Shown here: piece after piece, positions 14,931-59,542 of the stretch
Numbering within the stretch: the first letter of the stretch is position 1
How the letters are laid out: every line of letters starts with the position of its first letter
Notes under the pieces: generated by a model
Told to the model about the DNA's origin: nothing
The model's database searches: none
Seen by the model: the letters and a program-made list of their open reading frames with translations, nothing else
Program-made: the position numbers and the translations under genes
Source: Bradyrhizobium diazoefficiens
GTDB taxonomy: Bacteria; Pseudomonadota; Alphaproteobacteria; Rhizobiales; Xanthobacteraceae
Length of the DNA: 64,000 nt
Direction of reading: 5' to 3'
Assembly: GCF_016616885.1 (NCBI RefSeq)
Contig: NZ_CP067102.1
Location: 4,368,501 to 4,432,500 of the forward strand

Positions 14931-16127
14931 CTAAGCCACCCGTCTCGCCGCGCCGGCCTTGGTCAAAATCGCATTGAGACACCAGATCATCTCGGCGATC
15001 TCTCCTTTCGTGACGTTGAGCGCCGGCATGAAGCGCAGCGTGTCGAGTTGCGGCGCGTTGAGGAGCACGCCGGCCCCGAACGCCTGCGCGACGATGCCGG
15101 GCGCGATCGGCAGCTTGAGGTCGAGCGCGAGTAGTAGCCCGCGTCCCCGCACGCCGCCGAGGCCGTGCCGCGCCGAGACTTTTTGCAGCTCGCTTTCGAG
15201 CAGCAGGCCGGTCTCGGTGATCGACTTCAGGAAGTCGGGCGTGCCGACCTGTTCGAGCACGGCAAGACCGGCCGCGCACATCACCGGGTTGCCGTTGAAC
15301 GTGCCGCCCTGGTCGCCGTACTCGAAGCAGGAGGCGCGTTCGGTCGCAAGCAGCGCTGCGAGCGGCACGCCGCCGCCGATGCCCTTGCCGAGCGTCATGA
15401 TGTCGGGCGCAATCCCGGTGTGCTCATAGTGAAAGAGCTTTCCGGTCCGGCCCATGCCGGTCTGGATCTCGTCGAAAATGAGCAGCAGGCCATGCTTTTC
15501 AGTCAGCGCGCGCAGCTCCCGCAAGAACTGATCGGTCGCCGGCCACACACCGGACTCGCCCTGGATCGGCTCGAGCATCACCGCGACGGTGTTGTCGTTG
15601 ATCAGCTTCTCGACCGAAGCGATGTCGTTGAGCTTCGCCTTCTTGAAGCCGGCGACCTTCGGCTCGAACAGCGGCTCGAACGCCTTCTTGCCCGAGGCCG
15701 ACATCGTCGCCAGCGTTCGTCCGTGGAAGCCGCCTTCGAATGTGATGATCTCGAACGCGCCGCCCTTGTGCAGGCTGCCATATTTGCGCGCGAGCTTGAT
15801 CGCGCCCTCATTGGCCTCGGCACCCGAATTGGCGAAGAACACCTGGTCGAACGCGCTGGTGCCGACGAGCGCCTCGGCGAGCTTGAGGCTCGGCTCGTTG
15901 TAAAAGGCCGGGCTCGGCGTCAGCAGCCGCTTGGCCTGCGAAGCCAGCGCATCCGCAACCGCCGGCGGGGAGTGGCCGAGGCAGTTCACGGCCCAGCCTT
16001 GCACGAAATCGAGATAGCGCTTGCGGCTGTCGTCCCACAGGTATGAGCCGGCGCCACGGACGAACACGGCCTTGGGCCGTGCGGTGATGTCCATCAGCGT
16101 GTCATACGGATGGGTGGCGGTGGTCAT
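14931..16127 (-). CDS. argD: Acetylornithine aminotransferase ArgD
   Basis: This 398-residue class III PLP aminotransferase converts N-acetylglutamate semialdehyde to N-acetylornithine in arginine biosynthesis. The PLP-contact motif [17 protein letters not shown] (about 99-115), the [12 protein letters not shown] aspartate region (near 220) and the Schiff-base lysine in [13 protein letters not shown] (near 249) are intact. ArgD in several bacteria also serves lysine biosynthesis (succinyl-DAP). The start has a good Shine-Dalgarno (AGAGGAG) 7 bases upstream. No argF follows; the gene converges on qor. Upstream lies a putative arginine-rich leader peptide and hairpin, described separately, suggesting attenuation control by arginine. 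Confidence 0.93.
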
Positions 16128-16174
16128 GTCGAACTCCTCTTGGGGGGCGGGGTGAAAAGGGACGCGAAATGCAA

Positions 16175-16203
16175 GAAGGCCGCACTTTGCGGGTGCGGCC
16201 TTC
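16175..16203 (-). terminator. Putative attenuator hairpin in the argD leader
   Basis: On the minus strand GAAGGCCGCAC and GTGCGGCCTTC form a perfect 11-bp stem with a 7-base loop, followed by the moderately T-rich TTGCATTT. It lies between the Arg-rich leader ORF (27 bp downstream of its stop) and argD (47 bp before its start). A competing pairing is visible: GGGTTGCG inside the leader ORF (16259-16252) can pair, with one bulged T, with CGCACCC in the loop and 5' arm (16197-16191). This assignment is an inference from position and complementarity. Confidence 0.65.
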
Positions 16204-16229
16204 TCGAAAACTGTGCTGACTTTACTGGT

Positions 16230-16286
16230 TCAGCGGCGTCGTCGGACATGGCGCAACCCATCATCGTCGCGGGAGCGACGACGCAT
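16230..16286 (-). CDS. Putative arginine-rich leader peptide of argD (18 aa)
   Basis: The 18-codon ORF reads MRRRSRDDDGLRHVRRRR and stops with TGA. Nine of 18 residues are arginine, in a cluster of four near the start and a run of four just before the stop. Arg codons used are CGT, CGC and CGA, the CGT and CGA being less common in this GC-rich genome. Upstream, TTGACA-18-TATTGC predicts a transcript start near 16320, which makes a 5' UTR of about 35 bases and argues against the in-frame ATG at 16319. The Shine-Dalgarno is weak (CAGG). Position before a hairpin and argD fits a ribosome-stalling sensor of arginyl-tRNA. The peptide itself probably has no other function. Confidence 0.6.
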   Translation of the reverse strand: MRRRSRDDDGLRHVRRRR

Positions 16287-16327
16287 GGCCTGGCGCAGAT
16301 GGGTCCGAGAATTGATCATGGGGCGCG

Positions 16328-16357
16328 GCAATACATGCGAACCGCGCGACTTGTCAA
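16328..16357 (-). promoter_or_regulatory. Predicted promoter of the argD leader transcript
   Basis: Minus-strand TTGACA (16357-16352), an 18-base spacer and TATTGC (16333-16328) resemble a housekeeping sigma70-type promoter. It is correctly placed about 40-50 bases upstream of the arginine-rich leader ORF. Predicted start of transcription is about 16320. Confidence 0.55.
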
Positions 16358-16460
16358 GCGGGCGTCTTGCAAAGCACCCGCCGCGCGTGCATCGCACGTC
16401 AATTGATTGCCGCGCAGAAACCATCCTGCCTCTAGCGCGTTTGTGATCGAGGGACGCCGA

Positions 16461-17465
16461 TTGAGTTCGAACCGGACACGCGACGGTTCAGACCAAGAGG
16501 GACGGGACCAACCAGATTGTTTTGCCTTGTCCGAGCCTTACCCGATCGACCTCGACAGCATTCGCGGCGCGTTTCCGCCGGGCATCGAGGCACCGCCTTT
16601 GCTGCTGGATTTTGCCGGCTGGCTGAACGGGCGCGCCTGGGGCAGCGTCGGCTGTTTCTCGCTGCAAGGTCAGTTCTCCGACCAGGCGCCGATCTTCGAC
16701 GGCAGTTCGCTGCGCGACCGCTTCGCGCTGTTCATGCGCCTGCCGGACGGCTCGGCCGTCGGCGGCTGGTACGGCGCCGGTCTCGATCGCGACGATCCCC
16801 CGATCGTGGGATTGGGCTCGGAGGGCGACTACGAGCTGCTCGCACCGTCCCTCGACGCGCTGCTTGCAAAACTCACGTCGCAGCAATTCGACAAGGCCTG
16901 GCACGATCTGCGGCCGCACGACGAGGTCGAGCCTCAGACGGTCGAGCTTGCGCAATGGCTCGCCCGGCGGCCGACCGGCGAGCCGGTGCCGTCCGAGGAC
17001 GGCGCATTCGAGCTGCCCGACTTCCGTGGCTTCGTCGAGAAGTGGAGCCGGGACCGCGAGGAATACTGGGCCAATCACCGCCTGATGGCCGAGCTCGGCT
17101 GGCGGCTCGCAGCGCATCTGCCGAAGGGCAAGAACGCCTGGGACAAGACCCATTTCGAGGTCGCGATCGCGGGCAAGCAATACGAGGCGCGCGTGCTGTC
17201 GCGCGGGCCGCAGCCGTTCGAGGAGGCCGCCTCGATCGAATCCCTGCTGCGCGATTTGCGCGAGGAGATGCGCCGCGCACAGCCCGAGCTCGGGCTGTGG
17301 TACGCGATGAAGTTCGCCCTCTATGCCGACGGCCGCGTCATGCCGAATTTCGAATATGATGTGCGCCCGACCATCGACGGCGAGCCGGCGAAATTGTCCG
17401 AGGCCCAAGCCGATCTCGCCCGCGCTCCGCGCCCGGAGCGCTGGGTGCCGAAATGGCTGGTGTGA
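16461..17465 (+). CDS. Possible two-domain immunity-like protein (SUKH-like plus YezG-like)
   Basis: I do not recognise a named gene. The N-terminal half carries FALFMRLPDGSAVGGWYG, PPIVGLGSEGDY and LLAPSLDALLAKL, a pattern like SMI1/KNR4 (SUKH) proteins. The C-terminal part, with SLLRDLREEM, LWYAMKFALYADGRVM and NFEYDVRP, resembles the YezG-type immunity fold. Both families are known mainly as immunity proteins of contact-dependent or polymorphic toxins, but no toxin gene is adjacent. The start is uncertain: TTG 16461 follows GAGGGA at good spacing, with GTG 16443 and TTG 16407 as in-frame alternatives. It is divergent from the argD leader. The domain calls are by eye. Confidence 0.5.
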   Translation: MSSNRTRDGSDQEGRDQPDCFALSEPYPIDLDSIRGAFPPGIEAPPLLLDFAGWLNGRAWGSVGCFSLQGQFSDQAPIFDGSSLRDRFALFMRLPDGSAVGGWYGAGLDRDDPPIVGLGSEGDYELLAPSLDALLAKLTSQQFDKAWHDLRPHDEVEPQTVELAQWLARRPTGEPVPSEDGAFELPDFRGFVEKWSRDREEYWANHRLMAELGWRLAAHLPKGKNAWDKTHFEVAIAGKQYEARVLSRGPQPFEEAASIESLLRDLREEMRRAQPELGLWYAMKFALYADGRVMPNFEYDVRPTIDGEPAKLSEAQADLARAPRPERWVPKWLV

Positions 17466-59452: not shown

Positions 59453-59542
59453 GGAAGGGTGGCCGAGTGGTTTAAGGCACCGGTCTTGAAAACCGGCGTG
59501 CCCGCAAGGGTACCGTGGGTTCGAATCCCACCCCTTCCGCCA
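59453..59542 (+). tRNA. tRNA-Ser (UGA anticodon)
   Basis: A complete 90-base tRNA, beginning GGAAGGGTGGCCGAGTGG, with GG box near the A arm, an anticodon stem CCGGT/ACCGG around CTTGAAA (anticodon TGA), a long variable arm (CGTGCCCGCAAGGGTACCG), a T arm TGGGTTCGAATCCCA and 3' ACCCCTTCC-G-CCA with CCA encoded. Acceptor stem GGAAGGG pairs with CCCTTCC. The 5' half is duplicated as a scar at 57416. Confidence 0.96.

Follow-up and report, generated by a model that had tools for sequence, protein, structure and literature searches.

An arginine-codon leader upstream of argD in Bradyrhizobium diazoefficiens as a probable ribosome-mediated transcription attenuator

Ribosome-mediated attenuators are known from the amino-acid operons trp, his, leu, ilv, thr and phe. 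What such trp-type systems have in common with the leader described here, for whose ORF we propose the name argDL, is a short ORF in which codons for the product of the pathway are clustered and, as predicted for argDL, hairpins that exclude one another and a terminator in front of a biosynthetic gene; argDL differs in reading Arg codons, in preceding argD of a single subfamily, in having its antiterminator strand within the ORF and in its unrelated sequence. A further likeness is seen among rhizobia in Sinorhizobium meliloti trpL/rnTrpL, where the RNA starts at the ATG of the leader ORF (PMC7298713; this and the other papers cited by PMC number are represented by excerpts, to which statements about them refer).

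An example of arginine sensing by a leader ORF has been described in Salmonella, where consecutive Arg codons (two) in orf34 (speFL), upstream of speF, sense arginine as those of argDL are proposed to do, and this sensing has been reported to be independent of rare or frequent codons (PMC6386406). Unlike argDL, orf34 precedes an ornithine decarboxylase gene and acts through Rho, RNA folding and RNase G, with no intrinsic attenuator in the account excerpted (PMC6386406). The orf34 peptide belongs to the gammaproteobacterial family DUF2618; the argDL peptide lacks the SpeFL core HIRRT-HIMM, as quoted in the excerpt (PMC6386406), and its downstream gene is argD, not speF. In Pseudomonas aeruginosa, a carA leader peptide is cited (PMC4997734), which differs from argDL in that the gene is another one and that attenuation of carAB is discussed, in the excerpt, for pyrimidines. 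Lastly, uORFC-8-2 of Rhodobacterales cysS resembles argDL in being a uORF of Alphaproteobacteria whose cognate codons stand in tandem and for which attenuation is predicted; it differs in that the amino acid is cysteine and the gene that follows encodes a tRNA synthetase (PMC8632094). On these excerpts, orf34-speF (PMC6386406) comes closest as a precedent, together with the carAB leader of P. aeruginosa (cited in PMC4997734). In the open-licence literature searched, mostly judged by title and the start of the abstract, none of the papers was recognised as describing Arg attenuation of argD; the original prediction, whose author was not aware of a described Arg version before argD, agrees with our search, but its list of precedents (trp, his, ilv and leu) was too short, as orf34-speF and the carA leader belong there too. 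The mechanism proposed below is of a known kind, with an Arg specificity that has no argD precedent in the literature searched.

In the window, by which we mean the whole stretch of 64,000 nucleotides that was analysed, the region upstream of argD on the minus strand is very probably a ribosome-mediated, arginine-responsive transcription attenuator that controls this gene, an idea already put forward in the original prediction and now supported by comparative evidence. The analysis shows that the ORF, its Arg codons, the RNA helices and the link to the gene are conserved, and it predicts a switch point. Where transcription starts, that it terminates in vivo and which ligand is involved are inferred; what is sensed would be free arginine or charged arginyl-tRNA. 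The features are the following.

16352..16357, minus strand: -35 hexamer TTGACA, read directly
16328..16333, minus strand: -10-like hexamer TATTGC, read directly, with an 18-nt spacer to TTGACA
16230..16319, minus strand: leader ORF (argDL), 29 codons plus TGA, MINSRTHLRQAMRRRSRDDDGLRHVRRRR, in-frame ATG at 16319 and stop at 16232-16230
16275..16283, minus strand: codons of Arg13-14-15, CGTCGTCGC, proposed sensor and 5' strand of hairpin I (from conservation and stall modelling)
16262..16270, minus strand: 3' strand of hairpin I, GCGACGATG, pairing with 16283-16275 (94.4% of 377 cells paired)
16250..16259, minus strand: antiterminator strand GGGUUGCGCC at codons 21-24 of the leader ORF, pairing with 16200-16191
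16230..16234, minus strand: 5' arm of the stop-codon hairpin, GCTGA, pairing with 16219-16215
16215..16219, minus strand: 3' arm of the stop-codon hairpin, TCAGC, pairing with 16234-16230
16193..16206, minus strand: 5' arm of the terminator, CGAGAAGGCCGCAC, read directly and from fold model and covariation
16172..16185, minus strand: 3' arm of the terminator, GTGCGGCCTTCTTG, followed by the weak tail CATTTCG
16134..16140, minus strand: Shine-Dalgarno sequence of argD, AGAGGAG, read directly
14931..16127, minus strand: argD, acetylornithine transaminase of the PRK03715/NF002985 type (NF002985 645.3 bits against a cut-off of 568)

The argD gene starts, as read directly, with the ATG at 16127 on the minus strand, preceded by AGAGGAG at 16140-16134, so that the Shine-Dalgarno sequence and argD expected behind the hairpin are both in place. 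The other argD of the genome (G000:C1:758236) scores lower than the window copy and the ORF directly after it is taken, by eye, for argF; the window argD is therefore regarded as an accessory copy. In a profile search, argD of the PRK03715 type was above the cut-off in 11 of 119 genomes of the family. At the canonical argD (own genome, argD-argF; L002:1383-1412), no Arg leader was seen; a TTGAC/TAGAAT-like promoter is followed at once by a short TGCCGCC..GGCGGCA hairpin whose tail is rich in T. This hairpin nearly coincides with the start predicted for the transcript and was found, in this arrangement, at 15 of 19 family loci (L100-L118) by regular expression and at L002 by eye. On the other side of the leader, a divergent ORF of 352 aa with no Pfam match (16407-17465, plus strand) lies about 50 nt from the -35 box, and in several relatives an apparent rimO 3' end (by eye) takes its place just upstream of the promoter.

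The promoter TTGACA-18-TATTGC had been predicted on the minus strand and was found at 16357-16352 and 16333-16328, with the leader ATG at 16319 standing 8 nt past TATTGC. In related leader upstreams, TTGACA is present in 83/83, at a distance to the ATG of 32 nt in 72, 31 nt in 6 and 30 nt in 5, and the -10 site of relatives is frequently GCTGTATGG or GCTGTAGGG at the same position. Since TTGACA lies 30-32 nt and the -10-like box 8 nt before the ATG, transcription from it would be expected to begin at the ATG or within a few bases of it, and the leader mRNA is probably leaderless. Most of 21 upstreams taken from several lineages have a -10-like element, recognised by eye, at a distance of a few nt from the ATG (unclear in L096 and L119), and leaderless translation of Arg leaders may be general across lineages. 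Simple promoter and terminator scans of the window listed neither the leader promoter nor the terminator with the 11-bp hairpin.

The 29 codons of argDL include 11 Arg codons. Among 62 related leaders of 29 codons, 49 of them distinct, ATG1 is invariant (49/49), and the Arg residues are kept as Arg5 in 46, Arg9 in 46, Arg13 in 48, Arg14 in 49, Arg15 in 46, Arg23 in 49, Arg26 in 49, Arg27 in 48, Arg28 in 23 and Arg29 in 43. The original prediction had placed here an 18-codon ORF, MRRRSRDDDGLRHVRRRR, from the ATG at 16286. This is the last 18 codons of the 29-codon frame, so the frame and stop were right; the start was not, as its Met (Met12) is kept in just 10/49 leaders and the true ATG lies 11 codons upstream. 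In the argDL frame, the synonymous share of single-base codon differences is 0.395 against 0.264 expected, with pairs that are not independent, and in the other two frames 0.306 against 0.260 and 0.212 against 0.263; these codon differences suggest a coding signal of moderate strength, and the region holds RNA helices as well.

The 208-nt leader folds with -78 kcal/mol (z -4.86 against dinucleotide shuffles), and within it four pairings are considered. The terminator was anticipated as a perfect 11-bp GC hairpin, and its core is indeed 11 bp (GAAGGCCGCAC at 16203-16193 with GTGCGGCCTTC at 16185-16175; 14 bp in the RNAfold model), a conserved stem followed by TTGCATTTCG, in which there is no classical U-run and the U-tract is weak in the window. 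The competing pairing, predicted between 16259-16252 and 16197-16191, exists and extends to 16259-16250 with 16200-16191, GGGUUGCGCC with GGCCGCACCC, with two bulges; the partner strand comprises GGCCGCAC of the terminator 5' arm plus the first two loop bases CC. Upstream of it, hairpin I with its flanking pairs is proposed, from the fold models, to be the anti-antiterminator. The fourth is the stop-codon hairpin, which is 99.5% paired (210 cells) with zero compensating variation and is hence uninformative on covariation.

Support from covariation was sought in 81 distinct sequences among the 83 leaders and in alignment A1 (42 of 51 sequences after a 93% identity filter, hand-picked). The terminator stem is 99.0% paired in 420 cells, and its covariation score, carried by one pair, is equalled by 0/500 shuffles. 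In hairpin I, three pairs are changed on both sides, which is matched by 2/500 shuffles, and with the partner slid by 3 columns 71-80% of cells are still paired, owing to the CGN repeats. The antiterminator is paired in 92.3% of 378 cells against 38-47% with its partner slid; it holds one double-changed pair only, with the paired percentage equalled by 24/500 shuffles and the number of double-changed pairs by 410/500, and part of its misfit comes from a clade in which GGGUGCG stands one column off. Across the 81 sequences the three strands co-vary. Those with GCACCC in the terminator have U opposite the terminator's A in 60/64 (19 register-shifted), and where the terminator has GCGCCC (n=12) the leader has C in 8 and U, giving a G-U pair, in 4, with the matching GCGCGG in the 3' arm in 11; the two with GCAACC (L065 and L074) both have GGTTGCG and GTTGCGG, and the remaining three are single types (one L052, one L099). 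Duplexes of cognate leader and terminator strands are also more stable than swapped ones (means of -16.1 against -15.4 kcal/mol, permutation p 0.00995), over 28 distinct combinations that are related by descent.

How the ribosome might choose between these structures was modelled with a 31-nt ribosome shadow and the terminator 3' arm still unmade. A ribosome at any of codons 3-15 of the window leader leaves about 12-16 antiterminator pairs; once it has reached codon 18, the number is 6-7. As the pairs fall past codon 15, a stall any later than the Arg triplet no longer sets the strand free, and Arg13-14-15 are therefore the likely sensor in the model. The drop after the Arg triplet is seen in 9/10 relatives; L052 shows no stall effect, the script having picked another hairpin as its terminator. 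Of the two Arg clusters that had been thought to fit a stalling sensor, the early one is thus borne out by the stall model and the terminal run of four, as the main sensor, is not, since modelled stalls at RRRR leave the antiterminator strand covered and Arg28 is variable (23/49). The conserved terminal Arg codons are unaccounted for by the attenuator model.

On this model, RNA polymerase would start at or beside the A of the leader ATG, so that the leader would be read from a leaderless mRNA. When arginyl-tRNA is plentiful, the ribosome would pass Arg13-15 and reach the stop, where hairpin I and the ribosome together would hold GGGUUGCGCC away from the terminator arm; with this strand held off, the GAAGGCCGCAC/GTGCGGCCTTC hairpin would form and transcription would end before argD. 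When arginyl-tRNA is short, the ribosome would wait at Arg13-15 and open hairpin I, leaving GGGUUGCGCC to pair with GGCCGCACCC before the terminator 3' arm is made, and argD would be transcribed.

In a stall test over several families (12 loci), the drop after the Arg run is above the shuffle mean in 11, with a Stouffer z of 6.68 that is generous, since four of the 12 (L206, L209, L217 and L233) are of one family. The shuffles as good, of 60 each, number 1 for L095 (the window's own locus), 10 for L096, 44 for L119, 0 for L120, 3 for L193, 9 for L195, 15 for L197, 0 for L206, 0 for L209, 5 for L217, 4 for L185 and 17 for L233; L119 thus fails, and for L096, L195, L197 and L233 the margin over shuffles is not clear. 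In equilibrium folds of the complete L095 transcript, the full terminator wins at every stall position (P 0.89-0.99), and among the 12 loci its P falls below 0.5 in L206 only (0.13-0.27, at three stall positions). The switch must therefore be kinetic, i.e. co-transcriptional; in the models of the window's leader, the stall-dependent change appears with the terminator 3' arm still unmade, but not in the complete transcript. In the ribosome-free leader, the antiterminator is predicted for several relatives (e.g. L019, L074, L076, L089 and L098), which in the models would be at odds with a trp-type switch, expected to terminate there; the window's own sequence has 5.7 antiterminator pairs without a ribosome and does not favour the antiterminator.

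Within Bradyrhizobium and its family, alignment over related genomes bears out the expected conservation of the Arg codons and the hairpin. One script detected the leader in 83 of 91 loci, which include the window's own L095 and some near-duplicates. Of its eight misses, L053 has a leader that failed the motif, L055 offers just 85 nt of upstream, L082, L083 and L096 have other leader types, and in L086, L087 and L088 none was recognised. Among named relatives, 73/80 have an ORF of 9-40 codons that begins with ATG and contains three or more consecutive Arg; in L052, L065 and L074 the leader is present with its Arg triplet interrupted. A covariance model (R1) has one match each in 57/60 genomes of the genus, with the position relative to argD checked for G000 and G024 only. 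It also matches 10/118 genomes of the family, each match ending 36-64 nt before a PRK03715-type argD match. Such a gene occurs in 11 family genomes, and the one that R1 does not match, G037 (L096), has a different Arg leader, MQYASTNARRRRRARRFSAGAWDMRTR, with its own terminator. In G000 there is one strong R1 match (1.8e-39; next 0.019), and a paralogous leader elsewhere in the genome was rejected on this single strong match. At two weak R1 matches, L148 and L151, no such leader was found on a partial reading by eye. As a side observation, L009 (JAUEPE010000026.1, titled Frankia sp. RB7) has an argD 94% identical to that of the window together with the Bradyrhizobium leader, and this assembly is perhaps mislabelled or contaminated.

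Beyond the family, PRK03715-type argD was above the cut-off in 8/385 genomes of the class, 22/249 of the phylum, 8/15 of G399's family and 43/60 of G673's family, in sets that overlap. An Arg-run leader (upstream ORF, ATG start, 9-40 codons, three or more consecutive Arg) precedes 54/68 PRK03715-type loci (38 with at least four Arg) against 1/62 loci of other argD types. The 68 include L095 and 33 loci from one family, f211; all 130 flanks were taken from coordinates, and the control set has two short upstreams (L139, 252 nt; L203, 73 nt). Outside the window's family the count is 41/55, leaders occur in 10 of the 13 families that have a PRK03715-type locus, and in G673's family they are found at 26 of 30 tabulated loci (of 43 genomes). 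Examples, each before a terminator, are MIRTATLRRRRHMHPLPGPRGRAHGHRIR, MLNLANRNRRRRSPAALARAR, MNRIQSELRRRRSPLP and MNQALHLRRRRTLLPPGSRAAVC. Across lineages it is mainly the Arg run that is kept; lengths range over about 15-37 codons, the residues on either side of the run and the C-terminus vary, and the terminators are unrelated. Of the 14/68 loci without an Arg run of three, L183, L184, L186 and L226-L228 appear to lie close behind an upstream gene (by eye, on part of the loci), in L194, L196 and L197 the leader has no more than two adjacent Arg and is accompanied by a strong terminator, and upstream of L189-L192 and L232 no leader was recognised.

A second layout is found in BAL199, Thalassobaculum and other Alphaproteobacteria (L082, L083, L121-L124 and L155-L160), where short leaders end in RRR or RRRR plus one or two residues, the ORF lies within one long hairpin in most folds and no classical terminator was seen before argD. 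Together with the weak U-tract of the window and with orf34-speF, which operates at those levels (PMC6386406), this layout speaks for the possibility that the leader acts mainly on translation or mRNA stability, Arg stalling altering the folding or the access of Rho and the hairpin being an inefficient terminator. We consider this unlikely, as terminators with long T-runs stand at the same place in L119, L120, L185, L193, L195, L206 and others, the terminator and antiterminator strands of Bradyrhizobium co-vary, and sequestration of the argD Shine-Dalgarno sequence is mostly no better than in shuffles in the 12 loci folded (200 shuffles each, of which as good were 2 for L123, 7 for L156, 20 each for L157 and L159, and at least 68 for the other eight).

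Far less probable is a reading in which the product of the short ORF is itself a functional small protein, rich in arginine, and the link to argD is incidental. The peptide is well conserved within Bradyrhizobium (DDDG, HVRRRR), and some arginine-rich small proteins do have roles, e.g. DUF1127 (PMC10117765, excerpt); against this, it is chiefly the Arg run that is kept across lineages, where length, flanks and C-terminus differ, the conservation of the peptide coincides in part with the RNA helices, and the ORF goes with one argD type. Less credible still is that the hairpin serves an upstream rimO as an ordinary terminator and that the ORF is Arg-rich by chance, in DNA of high GC content. In several relatives, what by eye appears to be the end of rimO (3') directly precedes the promoter, and Arg codons are GC-rich; against this, the TTGACA promoter-like pair precedes the leader in 83/83 relatives, the frame is conserved across genera and such an ORF occurs at just 1/62 control loci.

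The attenuator reading also bears on a catalogued RNA. The Rfam family RF02884 (BcKCsr7) coincides with the element in one family of genomes and matches at or above its gathering score directly before PRK03715-type argD in six loci, L206 (164.7 bits), L209 (139), L181 (92.6), L214 (89.8), L229 (89) and L230 (59.9), of which L181 was one of 14 sources in a first scan and the other five came from a scan of 16 sources; weak matches are found in L217, L231 and L233. The model spans the promoter end, the Arg leader and the terminator, and thus shares position and architecture (Arg leader, terminator, PRK03715-type argD) with the element of the window. It has no match in the window or L147 at the gathering score, nor in L095 up to E 0.5; at the gathering score the only Rfam match in the window is a tRNA at 59453, with no riboswitch or amino-acid leader family. 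From the RF02884 match, G673's family would be the Burkholderiaceae. Bc_KC_sr7, identical to nc5U30 and RIT34, is located on chromosome 1 of B. cenocepacia J2315 (2,967,641-2,967,787, i.e. 147 nt by coordinates) and is listed as expressed (PMC10987360). Rfam types it as an sRNA gene, and a leader-peptide or attenuator role is stated neither in the Rfam output nor in the excerpt of that paper (PMC10987360). The shared architecture suggests that BcKCsr7/RIT34 would be the attenuated leader of argD.

In a wider view, for and against which we see equal weight, Arg attenuation would be old and widespread on one ArgD subfamily in Pseudomonadota, with leaders read from leaderless mRNAs and with terminators and antiterminators rebuilt from lineage to lineage around a constant Arg run, and the terminated leader would accumulate as a stable RNA (in Burkholderia, BcKCsr7/RIT34), possibly acting in trans like rnTrpL.

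Control of arginine biosynthesis is usually ascribed to the repressor ArgR. In the excerpt of a comparative study, ArgR is conserved in Gammaproteobacteria and absent from the other proteobacterial classes analysed (PMC5343134). If the attenuator reading is true, an Arg-codon attenuator would provide a repressor-free sensor of arginine in bacteria without ArgR, and arginine would join the amino acids whose supply is sensed by a leader-peptide attenuator in the pathway that makes them. It would also give a catalogued sRNA a testable function, and would suggest why one of the two argD genes of Bradyrhizobium would respond to arginine supply.
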